From positions 1-36,087 of the forward strand of contig CASFBL010000026.1 of NCBI GenBank assembly GCA_949292775.1: a DNA stretch of 36,087 nucleotides. Reading direction: 5' to 3'. Source of the stretch: an uncultured Eubacteriales bacterium. Lineage in GTDB: Bacteria; Bacillota; Clostridia; Oscillospirales; Acutalibacteraceae. Position 1 is the stretch's first letter, and every line of letters starts with the position of its first letter. The notes beneath the pieces were generated by a model. That model saw nothing but the letters and a program-made list of their open reading frames with translations, did no database searches and was not told where the DNA came from. This document shows positions 3,553-36,087 of this stretch, in pieces. A program made the position numbers and the translations under genes.

Positions 3553-5334
3553 TTGGATCCCATCAATGTCGATTTCACCGGCGGCGGTAAAAAAGACGAC
3601 GGCAAGAAAAGCGTCGTTGCCGATATTTTAATCCCCCCGGAACACGCAGGCAGAAAAATCGCTGTTAATATCATCCTTACGCTGATTGCGGCCGCGGTTT
3701 TATATTACTTTATGATTCCTGCGCTCAACTTTAAGGCCATTGAGCTTTATATGTATGTGGTGTTTGTCTGCCTGATTTACCTCGGGCTTACCGTGCTTTC
3801 CACCAAAGTGTTTGCAAAGCCGGAATACGGCCCTTATGTGCGCAAGCGTGCCCGCGTGCCCGGCGTCATTATCGGGCTTGTTCTGGTTGTCGGCATCATC
3901 GGCTATCTTTGCGGCGCGACCATTTTCCGCGCGCAGTCTTACAGTAAGCTGCTGACTGTCGAAGAGGGCGATTTTGCACAGGATGTTGCTGAAATCGACT
4001 TTTCCAGCGTGCCGCGCCTCGACTCTGCTTCTGCGAACCAGCTGGCAGTTCGTGCACTTGGCGATTTGCCGGACTATGTTTCTCAGTTTGTTGTTTCCGA
4101 ATATTCCACACAAATCAACTATCATGGCACGCCTGTCCGCGTTTCGACGCTCGCTTACGGCGATATTTTCAAATGGCTGAAAAACACCAAAGACGGTCTG
4201 CCGGCTTACATTATTGTGGATATGACCACGCAAAAAAGCGAAGTTGTGCGTTTGGAAGAGGGCATGCGCTACACACCCTCTGAGCACTTCAACCGCTATC
4301 TGCTGCGGCACCTGCGTTTCCAGTATCCGACCATGATGTTCGACACACCGAGCTTTGAAATCGATGAAAACGGGGATCCTTACTGGATTGTGCCGATTCT
4401 TGACAAGACGATCGGTCTCTTCGGCGGCACAGATGTTATCGGTGCAGCAGTCGTCAATGCGGTGACCGGTGAATCGCAGCTTGTCTCTACCAGTCTGACC
4501 GGCGAATCTGCCCTGCCTACCGATCAGTTCGTGACCGACGCCCAGTGGCAGTGGCTCGACCGGGTATATTCCGCCAATATTCTTGACCAGCAATATAATT
4601 ATTACGGAAAACTGTCCGGCGGTTTCATCAACTCCATTATCGGGCAGGAGGGCGTCAAGGTGACCAGCTCCGGCTATAACTATCTTGCGCTCAACGACGA
4701 TGTTTACATGTATACCGGTGTGACTTCCATAAGCTCCGACCAGTCGATTATCGGCTTTGTGCTTTTGAACCAGCGCACGAAAGAGACCAAATATTACCCG
4801 ATTTCCGGTGCGCTTGAACAAACGGCACAGACCTCGGCACAGGGTGCGGTTCAGCAGTATTCTTATGTTGCGACCTTCCCGCTGCTTCTGAATATCAGCG
4901 GTGAGCCGACTTATTTCATGGCGCTGAAGGATTCCAGCGAACTGGTTAAGATGTACGCCATGGTAAATGTCAAACAGTCCACCATCGTGGCGGTCGGCAA
5001 CAACCTGACCGAGTGCACCGAAAAATATGCTGTGGCGCTCGAAAGCAACGGCATTAATGTCGATATCGATGTCAGCGAGATGGGTAGCGAGGAAGACCCG
5101 TCTGCGGAAAAGCCGACCACGCGCGAAGTCTCCGGTAAGGTTGCCGAGATTCGTTCGGTGGTTACCGGCGGCGAGACCTACTTCTATATCCGCCTGGAAA
5201 ACGACCCGACCTTCTATAAGGTTTCGGTTGCCAATGCGGAAAAAGTGGTGCTTCTGAATGTTGGCGGTGACGCAGCGTTTACCGTTGGCGCAGATGCAAA
5301 GGGCGACATTGTCGAAGTCGTCTCCATGAAATAA
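3553..5334 (+). CDS. Large membrane protein with extracytoplasmic domain, function unknown
   Basis: About 593 residues. I do not recognise a characterised family. After a charged, glycine-rich cytoplasmic start come three predicted membrane segments (about residues 37-56, 64-84 and 102-122). A long soluble region of about 470 residues follows, probably outside the membrane. It has repeated mixed alpha/beta stretches, e.g. YIIVDMTTQKSEVV and GAAVVNAVTGESQLV, which resemble PepSY-like repeats only loosely. The start is TTG at 3553, because AAAAAGGAGAGG lies 9 bp upstream and an in-frame TTG at 3487 coincides with the predicted transcription start. The gene stands alone, with its own promoter and terminator. 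Similar proteins seem to occur as conserved hypotheticals in Clostridia (recollection only). Confidence 0.85.
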   Translation: MDPINVDFTGGGKKDDGKKSVVADILIPPEHAGRKIAVNIILTLIAAAVLYYFMIPALNFKAIELYMYVVFVCLIYLGLTVLSTKVFAKPEYGPYVRKRARVPGVIIGLVLVVGIIGYLCGATIFRAQSYSKLLTVEEGDFAQDVAEIDFSSVPRLDSASANQLAVRALGDLPDYVSQFVVSEYSTQINYHGTPVRVSTLAYGDIFKWLKNTKDGLPAYIIVDMTTQKSEVVRLEEGMRYTPSEHFNRYLLRHLRFQYPTMMFDTPSFEIDENGDPYWIVPILDKTIGLFGGTDVIGAAVVNAVTGESQLVSTSLTGESALPTDQFVTDAQWQWLDRVYSANILDQQYNYYGKLSGGFINSIIGQEGVKVTSSGYNYLALNDDVYMYTGVTSISSDQSIIGFVLLNQRTKETKYYPISGALEQTAQTSAQGAVQQYSYVATFPLLLNISGEPTYFMALKDSSELVKMYAMVNVKQSTIVAVGNNLTECTEKYAVALESNGINVDIDVSEMGSEEDPSAEKPTTREVSGKVAEIRSVVTGGETYFYIRLENDPTFYKVSVANAEKVVLLNVGGDAAFTVGADAKGDIVEVVSMK

Positions 5335-6265: not shown

Positions 6266-7716
6266 CCCTCGTCAACCTCCTTTAAAATGATGTGCGCCAC
6301 CGTTGCCAGGCTGAGCGCTTCACAGTAGTCGGGGGTAATGGCAAATTTGCCGGTTTGCAAACGCTTGAGAATCGCGTCTACGCGTTTCAGCCCTGTGCGC
6401 ACCGCACCAAGGTCTGGAATGACGAAATAAGCGCGCTGCATAATGGAGCGAATTTCTGTACGCAGCCCTTTCGGCAGCGGCGCACCGGAAATGTCCGGCA
6501 CACGGTCATCGGGAACGACATGCGCAAAGTTGGCTTCCACACAGCGGGTGATATCCTGCGCCGCCCGCCGACCGAATACCAGCGCTTCCAACAGCGAGTT
6601 GCTCGCAAGTCGGTTTTTGCCGTGCACGCCGGTGCAGGAGCACTCACCGACCGCGTACAGCCGCGCAATGGTCGTGCGTGCGTCCAAATCCACACCGATG
6701 CCGCCCATCAAATAGTGCTGGCAGGGGAAAACGGGAATCAAGTCTTTTGTAATATCCACGCCGTGCTTCATGCAGCCCTCATAAATCCCGGGGAAACGGT
6801 TTAACAGGTAGTCGCGGTCACGGTGTGTAATGTCCAAATAAAATTCGTTGCTGCCGGTTTTGCGGCTCTCCATGATGATGCATTTTGAAACCACATCACG
6901 CGGCGCCAATTCCAGCCGCTGGTCATAGCGGTGCATAAAGCGTTCTTTTTTGCAGTTGAGCAGATAAGCGCCCTCACCGCGCACAGCTTCACTAATCAAG
7001 AACTGTTCGCGGTCTGCACCGTTAAAGGCGGTGGGATGGAACTGCACGAAGCTTAAATTGCGAATGGTCGCACCAAGCTCATAAGCAAGACGAATACCGT
7101 CGCCGGTCGCCACAGCGGGATTTGTGGTGTATTTATAAACCCGCCCGATGCCGCCGGTCGCCAAAACACAGTAATCGCAAAACACCGTATAGGGCTTTTC
7201 ATCATGCAAAATGTCGGCGCAAAAGCCGCTTTTTACTTTTTCAAGCCGGAACACCATGCTGTTTTCGCATTGTGTAATGTTTTTACGCCTTTTGACTTCT
7301 TCTAAAAGTTTGTTGACAATTTCCGCGCCGGTGGTATCCTTATGGTGAACAATGCGGCGGCGGCAGTGACCGCCCTCCAGCGTTTTCTGAATCGAGCCGT
7401 CCGGATTTTTGTCGAAATCTACACCATAAGACATGATTTTTCGCACATCGTCCGGTCCTTCGGTGACAAGTGTGCGTACGGCGTCCGGGTCATTTTTGTG
7501 CTGCCCGGCAATCATGGTGTCTTCGTAATGCAGGTCAAAGCTGTCGTTTTCGAAGCTCAAGACCGCGGCAACGCCGCCCTGTGCCAACGAACTGTTGGAA
7601 AGGGTATCGCTTTTTTTCGAAAGCATCAGCACCGAAAGATTTTCCGGCAAAGAAAGTGCGGTATATAAGCCGCCCACGCCGGAGCCGACAATTAAAACAT
7701 CATATTTTTTATCCAT
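6262..7716 (-). CDS. nadB: L-aspartate oxidase
   Basis: 484 residues from the ATG at 7716; a GTG two codons upstream is an alternative. NadB is an FAD flavoprotein that oxidises aspartate to iminoaspartate, the first step of de novo NAD synthesis. Visible are the FAD-binding GSGVGGLYTAL, SNSSLAQGGVAAVL, the HHKDTTGAEIV segment, FVQFHPTAF, LISEAVRGEGAYLLN, LAPRDVVSKCI and the second FAD segment AVGECSCTGVHGKNRLASNS. These fit NadB better than fumarate reductase/succinate dehydrogenase flavoproteins, and the adjoining nadC supports the call. The C-terminal helical domain is shorter than in many NadBs (about 530 aa). The ribosome site is weak. Only about 40 bp separate it from murC with no terminator, so read-through from murC is likely. 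Confidence 0.95.
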   Translation of the reverse strand: MDKKYDVLIVGSGVGGLYTALSLPENLSVLMLSKKSDTLSNSSLAQGGVAAVLSFENDSFDLHYEDTMIAGQHKNDPDAVRTLVTEGPDDVRKIMSYGVDFDKNPDGSIQKTLEGGHCRRRIVHHKDTTGAEIVNKLLEEVKRRKNITQCENSMVFRLEKVKSGFCADILHDEKPYTVFCDYCVLATGGIGRVYKYTTNPAVATGDGIRLAYELGATIRNLSFVQFHPTAFNGADREQFLISEAVRGEGAYLLNCKKERFMHRYDQRLELAPRDVVSKCIIMESRKTGSNEFYLDITHRDRDYLLNRFPGIYEGCMKHGVDITKDLIPVFPCQHYLMGGIGVDLDARTTIARLYAVGECSCTGVHGKNRLASNSLLEALVFGRRAAQDITRCVEANFAHVVPDDRVPDISGAPLPKGLRTEIRSIMQRAYFVIPDLGAVRTGLKRVDAILKRLQTGKFAITPDYCEALSLATVAHIILKEVDEG

Positions 7717-27037: not shown

Positions 27038-27349
27038 CGCATGGACGAAGAGTTCGAGTCTCTCACAAGTTACACATCAAAAAGCAAAAGAAACTATGCA
27101 GGGCTTCTTTGCTTTGTGCTGTGGACTGCTTGCCCTCTTGCGGTGCCCGGCTCTGTCTGCGGCGGAAACCGCCTTGCCAATCGCCGACCGCTGCGCCAGT
27201 GCGCCCTCCCTGCATCCGCCACCGGCGGCGGTCGGTTGCACTGCCCGCGCCGGTTCCCGGCGCTCACGCTTCGGCTTTCCACCTTAACAAAACAAAAAAG
27301 ACAGGTAAAAACCTGTCTTTTTTGTTTGGCGGAGATGGAGAGACTCGAA
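27038..27349. repeat. tRNA-bounded repeat, copy 2
   Basis: About 312 bp, matching copy 1 apart from scattered substitutions and a 21-bp insertion near 27120-27140. The left end is AGAGTTCGAGTCTCTC (from about 27049). The right end is the inverted T-arm inside the intact tRNA-Ser(GCU), giving 16-bp inverted ends. Copies 1 and 2 are separated by a 73-bp unique spacer (26965-27037). Confidence 0.85.
27294..27323 (-). terminator. Terminator after tRNA-Ser(GCU)
   Basis: A perfect 13-bp stem (27294-27306 with 27311-27323), A-run on one side and T-run on the other, 3 bp past the CCA end. Confidence 0.9.
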
Positions 27350-27417
27350 CTCTCGCGCCGGTTACCCGACCTACGCCCTTAGCAGGGGCGCCTCGTCACC
27401 AACTTGAGTACATCTCC
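27327..27417 (-). tRNA. tRNA-Ser(GCU)
   Basis: 91 nt including encoded CCA (27327-27329). Acceptor GGAGATG/CATCTCC with discriminator G; anticodon stem CGCCC/GGGCG around CTGCTAA, giving anticodon GCU for AGC/AGU codons. There is a long class II variable arm and T-arm GAGAG-TTCGAGT-CTCTC. It lies inside the right edge of repeat copy 2. Confidence 0.97.
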
Positions 27418-27533
27418 GTGTTGTAACTTGTTTTAGAACTATGAAGTTGTTGCGCGTTTTGTGTTAAACGCCGAAACCCTCGCGGGCTCCAATCAATATA
27501 TAATTAAGATAGCCAATCTATCAAACAGTCGTT

Positions 27534-27622
27534 TGGCGGAGAGAGTGGGATTCGAACCCACGGTACGTTGCCGTACGACGGTTTTCAAGACCGTTCCGTT
27601 ATGACCACTTCGGTATCTCTCC
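27534..27622 (-). tRNA. tRNA-Ser(UGA)
   Basis: 89 nt including encoded CCA (27534-27536). Acceptor GGAGAGA/TCTCTCC; anticodon stem ACGGT/ACCGT around CTTGAAA, anticodon UGA, reading UCA and other UCN codons; long variable arm; T-loop TTCGAAT. Upstream of tRNA-Ser(GCU) on the same strand, 116 bp apart, possibly co-transcribed. Confidence 0.97.
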
Positions 27623-27745: not shown

Positions 27746-29284
27746 TTATGTATCGCTGTCTAACTGTAAGTTCGTAACACCCGGTGCGTAAATATTCACG
27801 CGCTTGGTATCGGTTCGCGGACGGACACGGAAGTTTTCCAAAACCACATTGTCTGCGTAGCGCGCCCACAGCCCATAGGCGTTTAAATTGCGCATCCGGT
27901 TGCATTCCGGATAAGTGTCTTCATAAGCCGGAACAAACGGCCGGGAGTCGTAATAGTCCTCGCCGGGGGCATAGGCAATGTCAAAATCTTTCAGTGTTAC
28001 ATTTCGCACGGTCAGCTTTTTGGTGCCTGTAATAATGACGGGAATCTCCACGCCGGTCGCCACAATATTTTCCACCGTAATGTCAGAAAGTTCGCCGCAG
28101 TTGTCAAATTCCTTGTCGCGGTTGCGGTTGTTCAGGCTGATAAACAGCGGGCAGGCTTCGCCTTCCATATCGATGTTGCGAATGGTTACATTCTTGACCT
28201 TGGCGCCGTCGGCGGATTCCAGAGAAATGCCGGATACACCGCCCGGATAAAGGTCGTTCAAAAAGAACGCGCAATCTTCAACCAAAACATTGGAAATATC
28301 CTGGCTTGTCTCCGTGCCGATTTTAAAGGCGTTTGTGCAGGTGGTTATCTTGCAGTTGCGCACCGTGATGTTTTGCATCGGCGCGCCGCCCAGACCGACG
28401 GCATTTTTCAGCACGATGCCGTCGTCGCCTGTGGAAATAAAGCAGTGCTCGACCGTTACATTGGAAGAACCGGCAATATCAATGCCATCTGTGTTGGCAA
28501 TGTGGCGGTTGTTGTTGATGACAAAGTCCCGAATCGAGACGCCGTCGCAACCGTTCAACTCCAGCGTCCACGCCGCAGAGTTCTCGAGCATAAAGTTTTC
28601 AATCGTTATATTTTTACAGTTGACCAAACGAACCAGATTGCCGTATTTGCTTTCGTGCGCAAAACGAACGCGGTAGCGGTATTCCTGCCGCATTTCCCAA
28701 ACATCCAGTGTCTCGTCAAAAGGCGTCAGCTTTGGCTCATATTTTGGTGCAAGCGAAAAGAAGTTGCCCTCGCCGCAGATTTTTCCGCCGCCGGTCAGGG
28801 TAATGTCCTGTGCATTTTCGGCAAATAACAGGCAACCTTTGTCCATGGCCTCACTGTCGTGCGAAGCGACCAGCGCCGCATCGGTGTCGATAAACAGCGT
28901 AATGCCGGATTTCAGCTCAATGCTGCCGGTGGTGTATTCGCCGCCGCCGACATAAATCACCCCGCCGCCGTGCCCGGCGACTTCATCGATTGCGGTTTGG
29001 ATGGCGTCGCTGTTATCTACACTCGTTCTGCCGGGGACTGCACCGCAGGTGCGAATGTCAACCGTCAAAAGCCCTTCCTGCGGTTCTGCGCTTTGCAAAT
29101 ATTCTGAAAACGGCAATTCCTCATAAAAATCGCCGGGATATACTTGCGAAAATACATCGCCTTTGGTGACCTTAAAATCCCGTGTGTATACGCCGAAGTA
29201 ATATCCGAGACCGCCGCCAACGACCAGGCAGACACAAAGCAGCACGCACAGCAAAATTCTTCGCTTTCTTCTCTTATACAGCAA
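27746..29284 (-). CDS. Membrane-anchored GH28-like (polygalacturonase-fold) beta-helix protein
   Basis: 512 residues. A basic start (YKRRKRR) and one hydrophobic segment (ILLCVLLCVCLVVGGGLGYY) suggest an uncleaved N-terminal anchor with the rest outside the cell. Residues about 70-500 form a right-handed beta-helix with many NITVRN-type coils and a pectate-lyase-like GGGVIYVGGGEYTTGSIELK start. GH28 catalytic motifs are NTDGIDI, STGDDGIVLK and AFKIGTET (in place of RIK); the usual GHG motif is not obvious, so activity is uncertain. Family members cut pectin or related polymers, but this could be a glycan-binding or other beta-helix enzyme. Start TTG at 29284, about 10 bp after CAGGGGG. It has its own promoter and terminator. 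Confidence 0.85.
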   Translation of the reverse strand: MLYKRRKRRILLCVLLCVCLVVGGGLGYYFGVYTRDFKVTKGDVFSQVYPGDFYEELPFSEYLQSAEPQEGLLTVDIRTCGAVPGRTSVDNSDAIQTAIDEVAGHGGGVIYVGGGEYTTGSIELKSGITLFIDTDAALVASHDSEAMDKGCLLFAENAQDITLTGGGKICGEGNFFSLAPKYEPKLTPFDETLDVWEMRQEYRYRVRFAHESKYGNLVRLVNCKNITIENFMLENSAAWTLELNGCDGVSIRDFVINNNRHIANTDGIDIAGSSNVTVEHCFISTGDDGIVLKNAVGLGGAPMQNITVRNCKITTCTNAFKIGTETSQDISNVLVEDCAFFLNDLYPGGVSGISLESADGAKVKNVTIRNIDMEGEACPLFISLNNRNRDKEFDNCGELSDITVENIVATGVEIPVIITGTKKLTVRNVTLKDFDIAYAPGEDYYDSRPFVPAYEDTYPECNRMRNLNAYGLWARYADNVVLENFRVRPRTDTKRVNIYAPGVTNLQLDSDT

Positions 29285-29322
29285 AATTCGTCGCCCCCTG
29301 AATTTGCAGTGATATATTTAAA

Positions 29323-29351
29323 AGAATACCATGCTGTTTTTGAAAAGTAAA
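29323..29351 (-). promoter_or_regulatory. SigA-type promoter for the GH28-like gene
   Basis: Minus strand: TTTACT (29346-29351), 17-bp spacer, TATTCT (29323-29328). Confidence 0.6.
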
Positions 29352-29421
29352 GTGCAAACCAACAAGGCGCAGCAAGATTGTGACGGATTTGTAAATATTT
29401 TTTGTTGCGTAGTGATTTTGT

Positions 29422-29450
29422 TTGAAATGCGGCGCATATCGTGCTAATAT
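29422..29450 (+). promoter_or_regulatory. SigA-type promoter for the zinc-ribbon/TPR gene pair
   Basis: TTGAAA (29422-29427), 17-bp spacer, TAATAT (29445-29450), 30 bp before the TTG start. Confidence 0.75.
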
Positions 29451-29480
29451 ATTAAAGAATACTTACAAGGAGGTATACCC

Positions 29481-30995
29481 TTGGACGATCAGAAAGAGAA
29501 AAAGAACGCCATGCCTGACGCTGCGCCTGAAAACGAGGCGGCAAAGGCGGAGGAGCAGGCGATACATGATGAAATGGAAGATCTTGCCAAGGTCTTTCAA
29601 GAGGAGCTTGACCGGGCGAAAGCCGAGGCGGCAGAGGTTGCCAACACGGTGCCGGAAGAGCCTGAAATCTTGATTCAGGGGCTGGACGACCTGCCCGACC
29701 CGGCAGAAGAAATTCAGGCGCAAGAAGACGAAGAAACAGAAAAAGAACCCTGCGCCTGCTGCGGCGAGCACCCGGCAGGAACGCATAATGACCCCAATTC
29801 CCCTTACTGTGAAACCTGCGACACGGGGCTGCGACACTATCCGTTTGATTTTGTCAACATTCTTTTGGTACTTGCTGTGCTGTGCTTCGTGTTTTACGGC
29901 GGCTATGTGTTTGCCGACCACACACAGGTGTTTTCAGAAGTCCACAAAGCAGACACACTCGCGCGGCAAAACAAGCTGTATTCTGCACTCGATGCTTATT
30001 CAACCGCAGCAAATACCATGGTCAACCAACATATCAATGGTGAGATGGTTTACAAACGCGAGATATTGCTGGCGTACCGGCTCGGCGGTATCAACATAAT
30101 GCAGGACCCGGCGGAAAATATCAAATCCTGGGAAATGTCCCTGCCGCACTTCCGCTCGCTTCGGCTGGCGCTGGATGATGCGGAAGCTTTCTTAGCCACA
30201 ACCGACGCGGCCAATGCAATTCTCGCGCCTTATGATACGACCAAGGCAGAGGATATTCCGTATGATGACCTGATTGCGCAGCTTGATGCGCTCAAGGACC
30301 AGACGATTACAACAACGGAGGCCGCATCTGATGCCGACACCGAAAGCGAGACTACAACGGCGGCTTCGGGGTACACGCCAAAGGCGGAAAAGTACAGCGT
30401 CGCCATGCTGGCATTCTTTAAATATCAGACGGCACTCATCTGTGAAAAGGATATGGAGACCCAGCTTGCATTTGCGGAAGAAATCCGCGAATACGGTCCG
30501 CAGTACCCGTGGTTATATGGGGCGATTTTAGGCGACTTGTATGCGCGCTCCGGGAAAGATGTCGAGCCGATTTGCCAACTGCTCGAAGCGGAGAATGCTG
30601 AGGACGACACGCCGGCGCTTTTGCGTGCAATCGTAAAGCGCATGAACGGTGATTATGACGGTGCAATCGCTATTTGTGAAGAAAAACTGGAAGCACAAAG
30701 CTCAATTTCCAGCGAGTTTTACCGTCAGGAAGGCCTTTGCTATCTTGCAAAGGGCGATTACGAAACCGCTTATAGCCGAGTGAACGAGGGCTTCCAAAAC
30801 ACCACTTATCCTTCCATGCAGTACTGCAATACGCTGGCACTCTGCGCGGCGGCAGCCGGTCAGACCGACGCCTATGACGAAATTGACGAGCTGTTCCAGA
30901 GCAGCGGTTATACCATTTCCGCAGAAGTTTCCGGCTACAAAAACGGTACAGTAACCTTGGAAAGCATACTTTTGGAAGGGGACTTTGATGTATAA
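29481..30995 (+). CDS. Membrane protein with zinc ribbon and TPR-like repeats, function unknown
   Basis: 504 residues from TTG 29481, after AAGGAGG. The first ~85 residues are acidic and helical (EEQAIHDEMEDLAKVFQEEL). A four-cysteine zinc-ribbon-like knot follows (PCACCGEHP ... SPYCETCDTG, about 90-115), then one membrane segment (FVNILLVLAVLCFVFYGGYVF, about 121-143). A long, presumably extracellular region has TPR-like helical pairs (residues about 145-185 and 370-470, e.g. YDGAIAICEEKL and CYLAKGDYETAYSRVNEGF) and a Thr/Ser-rich linker (about 275-297). No known family recognised. The stop codon overlaps the ATG of the next gene (TAATG), so both proteins are probably made together. Confidence 0.85.
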   Translation: MDDQKEKKNAMPDAAPENEAAKAEEQAIHDEMEDLAKVFQEELDRAKAEAAEVANTVPEEPEILIQGLDDLPDPAEEIQAQEDEETEKEPCACCGEHPAGTHNDPNSPYCETCDTGLRHYPFDFVNILLVLAVLCFVFYGGYVFADHTQVFSEVHKADTLARQNKLYSALDAYSTAANTMVNQHINGEMVYKREILLAYRLGGINIMQDPAENIKSWEMSLPHFRSLRLALDDAEAFLATTDAANAILAPYDTTKAEDIPYDDLIAQLDALKDQTITTTEAASDADTESETTTAASGYTPKAEKYSVAMLAFFKYQTALICEKDMETQLAFAEEIREYGPQYPWLYGAILGDLYARSGKDVEPICQLLEAENAEDDTPALLRAIVKRMNGDYDGAIAICEEKLEAQSSISSEFYRQEGLCYLAKGDYETAYSRVNEGFQNTTYPSMQYCNTLALCAAAAGQTDAYDEIDELFQSSGYTISAEVSGYKNGTVTLESILLEGDFDV

Positions 30996-31570
30996 TGAGA
31001 GTCGTTTATTTAATTGTTAAGTATATTACGGTAATCGGCACATTCCTGCAGGCGTTTTTTGAGCATCTCGTCTGCAGAACCTATGAGATATTGATTGAAG
31101 ACGGGCGGTATTTGCGCGCCAACGAAATGTGCGGTCATGTGGAACACGAGATCATCCGCAAGCGCTCTAAAATTTTCGGCGTCTGCTTTTTTCCGTTTCT
31201 GTTTAACCTGCTGATTGGGCTGGTGCTCGTGTCGGTCGGCTCGGTCAATGTGTATTATCTCGGTGAGTTCTTTACGGCGGGCGGCAATCTGAATATCGCA
31301 AACTTCCTGTTTTTGTGGGTGGGCATGTCCTGCCTTACCAATCTGTTCCCGCAAATGGAAGATGCGCTGACTTTGCGCGAAGAAATCTACGGCAAGGGTA
31401 AATCCAAGCTGTTTGTCCGCATTATTGCAGCACCGATTTTTGCTGTGCTTTATGCGGGTGCATACCTGCAAAAATGGGGCGTTACGCTTTTGACCTCCAT
31501 TGCATTTTCTTTTGCAGTTCCCTATATTCTCGGAACATTCGTGCCGACGATTTACAGCATGATTGCCTAA
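30995..31570 (+). CDS. Multi-pass membrane protein, partner of the TPR protein
   Basis: 191 residues with four or more hydrophobic segments (VYLIVKYITVIGTFLQAFF, FFPFLFNLLIGLVLVSVG, ANFLFLWVGMSCLTNLF and two near the C terminus). Between the first two lies an amphipathic cytoplasmic stretch with CGHVEHEIIRKRSK. HVEHE is reminiscent of, but does not match, an HExxH protease motif, and I would not call it a peptidase. Function unknown. It is translationally coupled to the upstream zinc-ribbon/TPR gene by a 1-nt overlap and followed by a terminator. Confidence 0.85.
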   Translation: MRVVYLIVKYITVIGTFLQAFFEHLVCRTYEILIEDGRYLRANEMCGHVEHEIIRKRSKIFGVCFFPFLFNLLIGLVLVSVGSVNVYYLGEFFTAGGNLNIANFLFLWVGMSCLTNLFPQMEDALTLREEIYGKGKSKLFVRIIAAPIFAVLYAGAYLQKWGVTLLTSIAFSFAVPYILGTFVPTIYSMIA

Positions 31571-31582
31571 AAAAGCCAAATA

Positions 31583-31615
31583 AAAACAGGACCTGTTTTT
31601 GACAGGTCCTGTTTT
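31583..31615. terminator. Bidirectional terminator before ahcY
   Basis: Stem AAAACAGGACCTGT with ACAGGTCCTGTTTT (31583-31595 with 31602-31615), shared by convergent genes. Confidence 0.9.
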
Positions 31616-31630
31616 GTTTTTCAGAGAATG

Positions 31631-32875
31631 TTATACATTCCAGCTGTGCAGATAGGTTTGCTGGGCCTGTGAAAGTGTATCGACAGACACACCCCACGCA
31701 GCGAGCTTTCTGCGCGCAACCTCGTCGTCAATCTCCTGCGGAATGTCATACACCCCGGGGGTTAACGCACCGCGGTGTTCTGCAAGATACCGTGCGGACA
31801 ATGCCTGAATGGCGAAGCTCATATCCATGATTTCCGCCGGGTGGCCGTCGCCTGCTGCCAGGTTTACGAGTCTGCCTTCGGCAATCAGGTGCAAAGTCCT
31901 GCCGTCCGGCATGCGATAGCCGGTAATGTTCTTACGGCTTTCATAGGTCTTTTCTGCCAGTTTTTCCAAATCGCCAATGTTGATTTCCACATTAAAATGA
32001 CCTGCGTTGCAAAGAATAGCGCCGTCTTTCATGCGCTGCATGGCGCGCTCGGTAATAACATCGCGGCAGCCGGTTACTGTGATAAACAGGTCGCCTATTT
32101 CGGCTGCCTGCTCCATCGGCATAACAGTGAAGCCGTCCATGACCGCTTCCATAGCTTTCACTGCGTCTACTTCGGTGACAACAACCTTTGCGCCGAGCCC
32201 TTTTGCCCGCATGGAAACACCCTTGCCGCACCAGCCGTAGCCTGCCACGACAACCGTTTTTCCGGCGACGATCAGGTTGGTTGTGCGGTTGATGCCGTCA
32301 AACACAGACTGCCCTGTGCCGTAGCGGTTGTCAAACAGATATTTGCATTTTGCGTTGTTGACTGCCATCATGGGGAAAAGCAGCTTATTGTCCGCAGCCA
32401 TTGCGCGCAGGCGAATAATCCCGGTGGTGGTTTCTTCACAGCCGCCGATTACATTTTCAAGCAGCTGCGGATAGGTATTGTGAATCAGGTTGACAAGGTC
32501 CCCACCGTCGTCAATGATGATGTGGGGCGCCGCTTCAATCACTTTTGCCAAATGTGCGTTGTATTGTTCGGCTGTGGCGCCGTGGACAGCGAAAACCTGA
32601 AGCCCGCTTTTGTCAAGCGCTGCGGCAATGTCGTCTTGGGTTGAAAGCGGGTTGCTGCCGGTCACATACATTTCCGCTCCGCCTGCGGCGAGCACCCGGC
32701 AAAGATAAGCGGTCTTTGCTTCCAAGTGCACAGAAAGTGCAACGCGAAGCCCGGAAAACGGTTTCTCTTTTTTAAATTCTTCCTCAAGACCGGACAAAAG
32801 CGGCATGTAGCCGCGTACCCACTGTATTTTTTGTTCGCCGCTTTCGGAAAGCGCCGGATTGCAAATGATACTCAT
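31631..32875 (-). CDS. ahcY: S-adenosylhomocysteinase
   Basis: 414 residues. AhcY splits S-adenosylhomocysteine into adenosine and homocysteine and so recycles the by-product of methylation. Substrate-site motifs include SVHLEAKTAYL, DDGGDLV, GCEETTTGIIRL and NNAKCKYLFDNRYGTGQS. The NAD-binding GYGWCGKG and the later GCRDVITERAM, CNAGHFNVEI and NLAAGDGHP are all present. The length fits the shorter bacterial/archaeal form. ATG after AGAGAGG. No SAH riboswitch is visible in its leader, and no methionine-cycle gene is adjacent. Confidence 0.97.
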   Translation of the reverse strand: MSIICNPALSESGEQKIQWVRGYMPLLSGLEEEFKKEKPFSGLRVALSVHLEAKTAYLCRVLAAGGAEMYVTGSNPLSTQDDIAAALDKSGLQVFAVHGATAEQYNAHLAKVIEAAPHIIIDDGGDLVNLIHNTYPQLLENVIGGCEETTTGIIRLRAMAADNKLLFPMMAVNNAKCKYLFDNRYGTGQSVFDGINRTTNLIVAGKTVVVAGYGWCGKGVSMRAKGLGAKVVVTEVDAVKAMEAVMDGFTVMPMEQAAEIGDLFITVTGCRDVITERAMQRMKDGAILCNAGHFNVEINIGDLEKLAEKTYESRKNITGYRMPDGRTLHLIAEGRLVNLAAGDGHPAEIMDMSFAIQALSARYLAEHRGALTPGVYDIPQEIDDEVARRKLAAWGVSVDTLSQAQQTYLHSWNV

Positions 32876-32941
32876 TAAAATCCTCTCTTTTCAGCCGAAC
32901 CGACAGGCGCGGCATCATTTTTGTCGATTTTTTGCAAAAAT

Positions 32942-32970
32942 AGAGTATCACACGCCCGTTAAAAAAGCAA
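32942..32970 (-). promoter_or_regulatory. Probable promoter for ahcY
   Basis: Minus strand: TTGCTT (32965-32970), 17-bp spacer, TACTCT (32942-32947). Confidence 0.5.
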
Positions 32971-32976
32971 TAGATA

Positions 32977-33005
32977 TTGACACCAAAAGGGATTTGTGCG
33001 ATAAT
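32977..33005 (+). promoter_or_regulatory. SigA-type promoter for the DUF4474 lipoprotein gene
   Basis: Perfect TTGACA (32977-32982), 17-bp spacer, GATAAT (33000-33005). Confidence 0.8.
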
Positions 33006-33052
33006 TTTATGCACGGAATGTTGGGATTTTTTTGAGAAACGGAGGCTTTATT

Positions 33053-33967
33053 ATGCGTGTAACAGCAAAAAGAATGTTTTGTATGGTGCTTGCAGCGCTG
33101 ATGATATTATTTTCGTTTACTGCGTGCAATAACGAAGAAGAAGATCCGGGTATCACCCGCGGCACAGATTCCATTCAAGCACCGGCAGTTACAACAACGG
33201 CACCTGTGACCGAAGCAACGACGGCGGCGACTACGGGTACAACAGCATCCACGACCAAAAAAAGCAGTTCTTCCAACAACAGCAATACGCCTACAAAATC
33301 ACAGCAGGATATTTCCGATGCGGCGAACAACAGCGGGCAGTCTTTGGCACTTGTCAGCTCGCTTATCAATGCGTTTGGCTTTAACTATGACTCTAAAGAG
33401 CAGGTTTTCTATACCGAGCTGGATTCCTGGCAGCGCTCCGGTAACTATATCAAGCACTATGACACCGTTGCGGCATTCGGCAACATGCGTTACCTGACCA
33501 CAAAGGTAGACTTCAACTACGACGGGCTTTCCTGGCGTTTGCAGTTCTGGAAAGGGCAGTACGGCGCATTTGGCGGCGCGGAGATTGGCGTTTACAATAA
33601 AATCCCCGGGCAAACCGATGAACTGTATTATTGCGCAGACGATGATCATCTGCTGTATATGTCTTACACAATGTATAAAACGCCGTCGGACTATCATAAC
33701 GGAATTAAGTATTTCACCCGCGGTTGGCAGAAACACTGGTGGCTGACCGGCTTTAAACCCGGCACGGCTACTGCAACCGATCTTGTTATGTCTGCACGGA
33801 TTCGCACCTATGACACCCAAATGGCTTCTGCTATGGAAAAAGGTCTTCAGGCAGCTGGCTTTAAGAGCGGCGATGCGAAAACCCAGTATGATACATACCG
33901 TCGTTCCGGTTTCGATTTCTTTATCCTGTGGTATTCTGTGGGCACCACAAACTATAATAACAATTAA
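33053..33967 (+). CDS. DUF4474-containing lipoprotein
   Basis: 304 residues from ATG 33053, after CGGAGG. Lipoprotein signal peptide with FTAC as the lipobox and Cys25 as the lipid-bearing residue, so it should sit on the outer face of the membrane. A Thr/Ser/Asn-rich linker (about residues 45-90) leads to a compact domain with FYTELDSWQRSGNY, DFNYDGLSWRLQFWKGQYG and GAEIGVYNK. This is the DUF4474 pattern, a domain of unknown function common in Clostridia. Stands alone with its own promoter and terminator. Confidence 0.88.
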   Translation: MRVTAKRMFCMVLAALMILFSFTACNNEEEDPGITRGTDSIQAPAVTTTAPVTEATTAATTGTTASTTKKSSSSNNSNTPTKSQQDISDAANNSGQSLALVSSLINAFGFNYDSKEQVFYTELDSWQRSGNYIKHYDTVAAFGNMRYLTTKVDFNYDGLSWRLQFWKGQYGAFGGAEIGVYNKIPGQTDELYYCADDDHLLYMSYTMYKTPSDYHNGIKYFTRGWQKHWWLTGFKPGTATATDLVMSARIRTYDTQMASAMEKGLQAAGFKSGDAKTQYDTYRRSGFDFFILWYSVGTTNYNNN

Positions 33968-33994
33968 AGGCAATTCCATTTGATGCACAAACAG

Positions 33995-34028
33995 CAGCCC
34001 GCGGCCATTGCTACCGCGGGCTGTATTT
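33995..34028 (+). terminator. Terminator after the DUF4474 gene
   Basis: CAGCCCGCGG (33995-34004) with CCGCGGGCTG (34014-34023), then TATTTTC. It lies only about 14-18 bp before the next ATG, so the following gene relies on read-through or an unseen promoter. Confidence 0.8.
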
Positions 34029-34041
34029 TCGGAGAAAATTT

Positions 34042-35046
34042 ATGAACGGGAATTTTTTTGCATTTCTTTCGAGAATCAAATATATCAATCGTTGGGCGTT
34101 GATGCGCAACACCAATTATGAAACGCTCAGTCAGCATTCTTTTGAAGTGGCTACCCTTGCCCATGCGCTTGCTGTAATCGGCAACCGCCGGCTGGGGAAA
34201 CGCTACGATGCGGCGCGCGCGGCGCTTTTAGGGCTTTACCATGATGCGCCGGAGATTATTACCGGCGATATGCCTACACCAGTGAAATATCACAGCGCAG
34301 AAATGCGTGAGGCGTTTGCTACGGTGGAGCATTATGCGGGGGAACGCCTGCTCTCGATGCTGCCGTCCGATTTGCAGCCGGATTTTCGCCCGCTTTTGCA
34401 GGAGGAGCCGGAAGACGCAGATCTGCAAACGCTTGTTAAGGCGGCGGATAAACTTTCTGCCTATATTAAATGTATAGAGGAGCGAAAGGCCGGCAATGCG
34501 GAGTTTCGCGAGGCTGAAAAAGCAACTATTTCTTTTATGGTTAATTCTTTAGACCTAGACAAAAAAGTATCTAGAGATAAAAACAAAGAGATTACAAACA
34601 AAATTGTAAGTGGGTTAGCGGAACTTGGAATAGTAAAAGATATGATAAGTTATTCTTATTCTTCTTGCTATTTGACTCGTGAAGGGTTCAAAAATAATTT
34701 GACAGGTACAAGGACAAGTACAACTCTTAGTGTACAAGTTGACAACTTAGAAAATTTAATGAGTGCAATAAATAGTATTACGGAAAATGGCGGAGAAGTA
34801 AATTCTATCAACTTTAAGCTAAATGATTTTGAAAGCAAATATAATGAAGTTCTAAATCTAGCAATTAATAGTGCAAAAATAAAGGCAGATGAAGTTCTAG
34901 GGGCAACAGGCACTATAAAGGGAATAAAAGAGGAATATATTTATTCTTGTGATACTAAATATCAAAGCTATATTGACGGCTTAGATGGGGAGTTTTTAAA
35001 TAACAAAATAACTGTTGAAGCACAAGTTGAAATTGTTGTAGGTTAA
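34042..35046 (+). CDS. Chimeric ORF: YfbR-like HD hydrolase joined to SIMPL domain
   Basis: 334 residues, two unrelated halves. Residues 1-160 form an HD-domain 5'-deoxynucleotidase of the YfbR type, with SQHSFEVATLAHA, LLGLYHDAPEIITGDMPTP (His-Asp metal site) and VKAADKLSAYIKCIEE. The usual last ~30 residues of YfbR are missing. From about residue 161 (ATISFMVNSLDLDKKV) it becomes a SIMPL/DUF541 domain ending in INSAKIKADEVLGATG and YIDG. SIMPL proteins are normally secreted with their own signal peptide, absent here. At the switch, base composition falls from roughly half G+C to under one third, and codon choice changes. The join is in frame, but the fusion makes no clear functional sense; see the finding. 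ATG after GGAG. Confidence 0.75.
   Translation: MNGNFFAFLSRIKYINRWALMRNTNYETLSQHSFEVATLAHALAVIGNRRLGKRYDAARAALLGLYHDAPEIITGDMPTPVKYHSAEMREAFATVEHYAGERLLSMLPSDLQPDFRPLLQEEPEDADLQTLVKAADKLSAYIKCIEERKAGNAEFREAEKATISFMVNSLDLDKKVSRDKNKEITNKIVSGLAELGIVKDMISYSYSSCYLTREGFKNNLTGTRTSTTLSVQVDNLENLMSAINSITENGGEVNSINFKLNDFESKYNEVLNLAINSAKIKADEVLGATGTIKGIKEEYIYSCDTKYQSYIDGLDGEFLNNKITVEAQVEIVVG
34510..34535. other. Composition breakpoint / probable chimeric junction
   Basis: Upstream 34381-34440 has 32 G/C of 60; downstream 34561-34620 has 17 of 60. All sequence from here to the window end is AT-rich. No repeat, att site, transposon end or tRNA marks the boundary. Confidence 0.75.
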
Positions 35047-35063
35047 AATTAATGTTTAAATTG

Positions 35064-35103
35064 AAAAAAGCATACTTGAAGATTATGTTCAGTATGCTTT
35101 TTT
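35064..35103. terminator. Terminator after the SIMPL half
   Basis: AAAAAAGCATACTTGAA with TTCAGTATGCTTTTTT, one bulge, T-run on both sides by symmetry; serves both convergent genes. Confidence 0.85.
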
Positions 35104-35164
35104 ACTTAATCTAATTTCAGCTTAAAATATTTATTTTTAAACTGATTGCTATTTAAATCAAAAA

Positions 35165-35623
35165 TTATTTAATTTCAATTCTGGAAGAGCTATCAAGTGG
35201 CTTTTGTGATTTTGGTACTATAATTTGCAAAATGCCATTTTCTAGTTTTGCATCAATGTCTTTTTCTTTTATGTCACCTACATAAAATGACCTTGAAAAA
35301 CTTCCGTAACTTCTTTCACGTCTAATGAAGTTTTCTTTTTTGTTGTCTTCATTTACGTTGTGCTCTCTGTGTACGCTAATTACAAGATAACCATCTCTTA
35401 AATCAAGAGTTACATCTTTTTTGTCAATGCCAGGTAGTTCTACGTCGATCACATATTCATTATCTCTTTCCTTAACATCAGTTTTCATCATATTGTTAAG
35501 CCTTCTGAGTTCTCTCCTGTCAAATATAGGTGCGTCAAAAAAGTCATCAAAAAATGGATCAAAATCCCTCAAAAACCTATCTTCATCTCTTCGTGACACC
35601 AAATCAAATTTATCATTTTTCAT
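35165..35623 (-). CDS. Hsp20-family small heat-shock protein
   Basis: 152 residues. Small heat-shock proteins hold unfolded proteins in a refoldable state without ATP. An acidic, Phe-rich N-terminal arm (FDPFFDDFFDAP) is followed by the alpha-crystallin domain (about 46-140): VIDVELPGIDKKDVTLDL, DGYLVISVHRE, SYGSFSRSFYVGDI and the conserved LENGILQIIVPK. The C-terminal tail ends SSSRIEIK, with an I-x-I anchor. ATG follows GGGAGG. Base composition is AT-rich, unlike the bulk of the window. Confidence 0.95.
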   Translation of the reverse strand: MKNDKFDLVSRRDEDRFLRDFDPFFDDFFDAPIFDRRELRRLNNMMKTDVKERDNEYVIDVELPGIDKKDVTLDLRDGYLVISVHREHNVNEDNKKENFIRRERSYGSFSRSFYVGDIKEKDIDAKLENGILQIIVPKSQKPLDSSSRIEIK

Positions 35624-35641
35624 AATAATTACCTCCCTTAC

Positions 35642-35698
35642 ATTTTAGTATTTCCTAAAATGCAAAACACATTATAGTCCCTTTTATAATTTTGTTAA
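35642..35698 (-). promoter_or_regulatory. hsp20 promoter with inverted repeat at the start site
   Basis: Minus strand: TTAACA (35693-35698), 16-bp spacer, TATAAT (35671-35676). The inverted repeat ATTTTAG-N6-CTAAAAT (35642-35661) covers about +3 to +22 of the transcript. It is not the CIRCE element; it could bind a repressor or fold in the mRNA. Confidence 0.65.
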
Positions 35699-35744
35699 GT
35701 ACTTTTTTGACTTTTTTATTTTTGTGCAAATTGTTAAATTTATT

Positions 35745-35772
35745 TTGAGTTTATTAATTAATATGATAGACT
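35745..35772 (+). promoter_or_regulatory. Possible promoter for the glycosyltransferase gene
   Basis: TTGAGT (35745-35750), 16-bp spacer, TAGACT (35767-35772). Weak -10 in AT-rich sequence. Confidence 0.4.
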
Positions 35773-35803
35773 TTTTACAAAATAAGAGCTTGTGAGGAGA
35801 ACG

Positions 35804-36087
35804 ATGGAAAAAGATAAAATAAGTGTAATAGAGCCAGTGTATAATGTTGAAAATTATTTGGCTAAATGTCTTGATAGCATTATAAACCAGACCTACAAGA
35901 ATTTAGAAATAATTGTAATAGATGATGGATCGACTGATAGCTCCCCAAGCATTTGCGATATTTATAAGGAAAAGGATAAAAGAATAAAGGTTATACATAA
36001 GGAGAACGGAGGGATTTCGTCAGCGAGAAATATTGGGTTGAAACATGCAACAGGTAATTTTATTGCCTTTGTAGATAGTGATGATTG
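35804..36087 (+). CDS. Family 2 glycosyltransferase, 5' part only
   Basis: The frame starts at ATG 35804, after GAGGAG, and runs off the window end after about 94 codons. The N terminus is the GT-A nucleotide-sugar fold: ISVIEPVYNVENYLAKCLDS, NLEIIVIDDGSTDSS, KENGGISSARNIGLKHATG and the metal-binding DSDD at the edge. Such enzymes transfer sugars to polysaccharides, teichoic acids or lipids at the membrane; the donor and acceptor cannot be judged. The usual SVI(I/V)PVYN has Glu in place of the hydrophobic residue. AT-rich like the rest of the segment after 34,520. Confidence 0.92.
   Translation, partial: MEKDKISVIEPVYNVENYLAKCLDSIINQTYKNLEIIVIDDGSTDSSPSICDIYKEKDKRIKVIHKENGGISSARNIGLKHATGNFIAFVDSDD

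Follow-up and report, generated by a model that had tools for sequence, protein, structure and literature searches.

In its account of chimeric contigs in metagenome-assembled genomes, the GUNC paper (PMC8201837) names misassembly as one, relatively rare, source of them. The contig described here, CASFBL010000026.1 (hereafter C26), resembles the cases treated in that account in holding fragments from two sources within one contig and differs from them in that its join is in frame and thus mimics a new fusion protein. It appears to break at a short stretch common to both sources, and a second contig of the assembly seems to carry its correct continuation. The two families brought together by the join are the YfbR-like 5'-deoxynucleotidases (PF12917; NF003009) and the SIMPL, or DUF541, proteins (PF04402). 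We put the probability that C26 is a chimera that arose in assembly, with positions 34509–36087 coming from a different, AT-rich bacterium, at roughly 0.96, and the comparisons of sequence set out below indicate that the YfbR–SIMPL frame is almost certainly an assembly error, with no true fusion protein behind it.

The window analysed is the entire contig C26 (36,087 nucleotides), one of 44 contigs in an assembly of 2.16 Mb, probably a metagenome bin, for which completeness is estimated at 98.61% and contamination at 1.27%. On its minus strand, at 27327–27622, it carries a tandem pair of tRNA-Ser genes with the anticodons gct and tga. The abrupt fall in composition on which the initial annotation had based its suspicion is borne out by G+C contents of 50.8% over 1–34508 versus 29.4% over 34528–36087, with the maximum-likelihood change point at 34516 (log-likelihood ratio 142). 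Inside 1–34508 every 1560-bp window has at least 46.4%. Codon use changes with it, as had also been proposed: third-position G+C drops from 0.55 at residues 1–156 of the fusion to 0.20 at residues 157–334, and the two genes that had been said to share the AT-rich style, both confirmed, stand at 0.25 (Hsp20) and 0.29 (the start of the glycosyltransferase). The presumed foreign part is the terminal stretch of C26.

A single open frame of 334 amino acids spans 34042–35046 and is uninterrupted at the seam. Residues 4–164 match the Pfam YfbR-like profile (E 4.7e-68; 228.9 bits against a cut-off of 25.9), and NF003009 is reached at 213.9 bits against a curated cut-off of 122, so that across the Pfam and NCBIfam profiles residues 3–164 are matched well over the curated cut-offs. 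The difference from an ordinary YfbR is that some 30 C-terminal residues are swapped out, and these would belong on another contig, C19. Residues 157–332 match the SIMPL profile (66.5 bits against a curated cut-off of 25.2); this match begins only at profile position 12 of 205, and the portion preceding the domain is therefore absent from the fusion, which has neither the linker nor the signal-like N-terminus seen in the nearest relative of the tail (contig L022, below). The frame is thus, as first described, an HD hydrolase that loses its C-terminal end and turns into a SIMPL domain without a signal peptide. We assign 34042–34508 (plus strand) to a host yfbR truncated at the seam (residues 1–155) on the basis of the Pfam and NCBIfam matches, the same-genus matches and the first base of C19, and 34510–35046 (plus strand) to the C-terminal 178 residues of a foreign SIMPL domain.

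The source of the tail can be approached through L022, a contig titled 'uncultured Christensenella sp.' with a G+C content of 29.3%. Positions 34509–35748 of the window are collinear with it at 97.5% identity over 1241 aligned bases, and the SIMPL part of the fusion shares 97% of its amino acids with the L022 protein. There the SIMPL gene is whole, encoding 290 residues from its ATG with an N-terminus of its own that, judged by eye, resembles a signal peptide, and the gene for an Hsp20-family small heat-shock protein, found in the window by profile match at 35165–35623 (minus strand), comes after it in the same place and at the same spacing. Between these convergent genes, at 35064–35103, the window holds an imperfect inverted repeat of 40 bases, probably a two-way terminator, with a counterpart in L022 at 6555–6593. 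The same SIMPL–Hsp20 arrangement recurs at 77% identity to the window tail in L023, from another bin. L022 and L023 are collinear for more than 6 kb from within the SIMPL gene onward, and upstream in three more blocks between which the two contigs differ in length; L022 is thus unlikely to be a chimera itself.

In all five donor-like genomes with a SIMPL relative, the match covers at most residues 152–334 and never the YfbR part, and the host stretch 29000–34527 found no match in the two donor-like genomes in which it was sought, by a search run without a positive control. The searches did not recover the donor strain, and its nearest representative is the 97.5% relative L022. When 391 genomes drawn from the class were searched at E 1e-20, nine matched the tail, one of them the window's own; the remaining eight matched it at 68–74% identity, six in the glycosyltransferase part only and two in the Hsp20 part only, with two candidates scored per genome so that weak matches could escape. 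A mobile origin of the tail was considered against phage and viral sequences and rejected: the phage collection gave two weak matches, one with the glycosyltransferase and the other with host yfbR, and a scan of viral contigs gave no confirmed relative of the SIMPL part.

Beyond 35748 the homology to L022 and L023 ends. The last 339 bases (35749–36087, plus strand) are AT-rich, find matches elsewhere of only 65–74%, and contain by profile match the start of a family-2 glycosyltransferase whose frame is interrupted by the end of C26, at a place where L022 and L023 have other genes in common. The next genes of L022 look, from their translations, like surface-polymer genes. Regions of surface-polymer genes often vary from strain to strain. 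The loss of collinearity may come from natural differences among donor strains or from a further join.

Within the host genus, YfbR ends as it should. A search of 59 genomes with the fusion protein, the window's own included, gave matches in 55; besides the window's own, 54 of 58 genomes match, none beyond residue 192, and all 35 matching genomes of the same genus match the YfbR part only. The 19 same-genus relatives among these 35 whose loci were fetched all have, by alignment, a YfbR that ends normally at 193–196 residues (a fixed peptide motif recovers 10 of the 19 ends), most with a C-terminus like ..LPLDKLK; for G014 an open frame of 992 residues is also listed, and translation from the yfbR start there yields an ordinary protein of 194 residues. 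The SIMPL–Hsp20 part gives no match of more than 41 bases in any of the 38 other genomes of the genus, eight of which match the tail weakly, mainly at the glycosyltransferase; at most nine candidates were scored per genome, and weak matches could escape. Neither the 58 genomes besides the window's own nor the five donor-like ones contain this fusion, whose presence in an independent related genome the initial annotation had named as evidence that would overturn its reading. That the fusion is old and inherited, or that the segment was horizontally acquired and is common to the host genus, is extremely unlikely even though both Pfam domains share one open reading frame, for the SIMPL–Hsp20 part is missing from all 38 genomes, the 19 orthologues are unfused, and the composition and codon use are those of the donor.

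The missing end of the host gene lies at the start of C19, of the same assembly. At the start of C19 (L058:1-60) the first twelve bases encode K-L-K-stop, the end of YfbR, with no foreign base before them, and a terminator-like hairpin comes next, as in the nearest relative, G024. Aligned to the entire assembly, a 15-kb stretch of G024 (L035) matched C26 up to L035:4577 at 79% and then C19, from base 15 of that contig, over L035:4705 to 14992 at 87%, collinear for about 10 kb just past yfbR. In five of the 19 relatives (L003, L006, L009, L010 and L012) the first 2 kb of C19 also match the DNA immediately after yfbR, in the same orientation; no such match is present within the flank of about 1.5 kb in the other 14, nor were C19 genes found after yfbR over about 8 kb in G033. 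Among the relatives with wider flanks the C19 order follows yfbR in one of four, G024 being in both sets. The gene order of yfbR followed by C19 is thus not conserved across the genus. On the L035 scale the gap from the seam to C19 amounts to about 84 bases (4600–4683), which were sought elsewhere in the assembly and not found, so that the true join is not directly visible. Host yfbR almost certainly passes from C26 into C19, to judge from these alignments, with about 84 bases missing between them. The two contigs can accordingly be placed head to tail on the host chromosome, C26 before C19.

Homology places the seam at 34509–34528, close to the edge near 34,520 proposed earlier. The window and L022 are identical over the 19 bases from 34509 (34509–34527), and base 34528 fits either parent. 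The sequence is ..FSEAEKATKKAL in the host homologue L004 and ..YEAEKATVSFMV in L022, and both encode EAEKAT in the same frame; the shared stretch is accordingly defined by the 19 bases against L022 together with the L004 peptide, the host side being known through this homologue. Simple arithmetic indicates that two unrelated genomes, one of 2.2 Mb and the other of 1.2 Mb, have a handful of 20-base words in common by chance, and such a seam therefore needs no biology. Short-read assemblers commonly take 21 as their smallest word size, which makes k-1 equal to 20 bases. We suggest that about 20 bases at the EAEKAT codons were alike by chance in host yfbR and in the SIMPL gene of the AT-rich bacterium, that the shared stretch would have acted as an assembler overlap at which the path crossed from one gene to the other, and that the true host chromosome would proceed from yfbR into C19. 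Since both genes translate the shared stretch in one and the same frame, the fusion stays open across the seam.

A real and very recent illegitimate recombination, held out by the initial annotation as the alternative, would instead have brought foreign DNA into yfbR, with C26 ending within the insert and C19 starting at its far edge. The frame open over the seam agrees with it, and the order of C26, gap and C19 is also compatible with an insert between the contigs; C19 would, however, need to start, by coincidence, precisely where the insert stops within the broken gene, and on this ground we consider the proposal very improbable. Further against it, L022 and L023 carry the foreign part as ordinary chromosomal DNA, none of the seven candidate stretches from the viral contig scan was confirmed as a relative of the SIMPL part, and the assembly holds no other match of at least 1240 bases to the 12.5 kb of L022. 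We accordingly see only a very slim chance that a real strain took up AT-rich chromosomal DNA via some 20 bases of chance homology and now makes an in-frame YfbR–SIMPL protein without a signal peptide.

Misassembly, already judged the simplest reading when the contig was first annotated, is supported by the intact collinear segment in L022, by the normal YfbR ends in 19 of 19 orthologues and by the end of YfbR at base 1 of C19; in addition, the two parts of C26 have separate nearest relatives, the host genus for one and L022 for the other. We infer that no cell carries the YfbR–SIMPL fusion. It follows for the host that 34509–36087 (about 1.58 kb) should be cut from its genome, that yfbR should be handled as split over C26 and C19, and that any claims of fusion or gene transfer based on 34509–36087 should be dropped. 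The chimeric contig holds no wider biological interest of its own; it illustrates that even in a genome that looks clean, at an estimated 1.27% contamination, a 'fusion gene' with an open frame can be purely a product of assembly.
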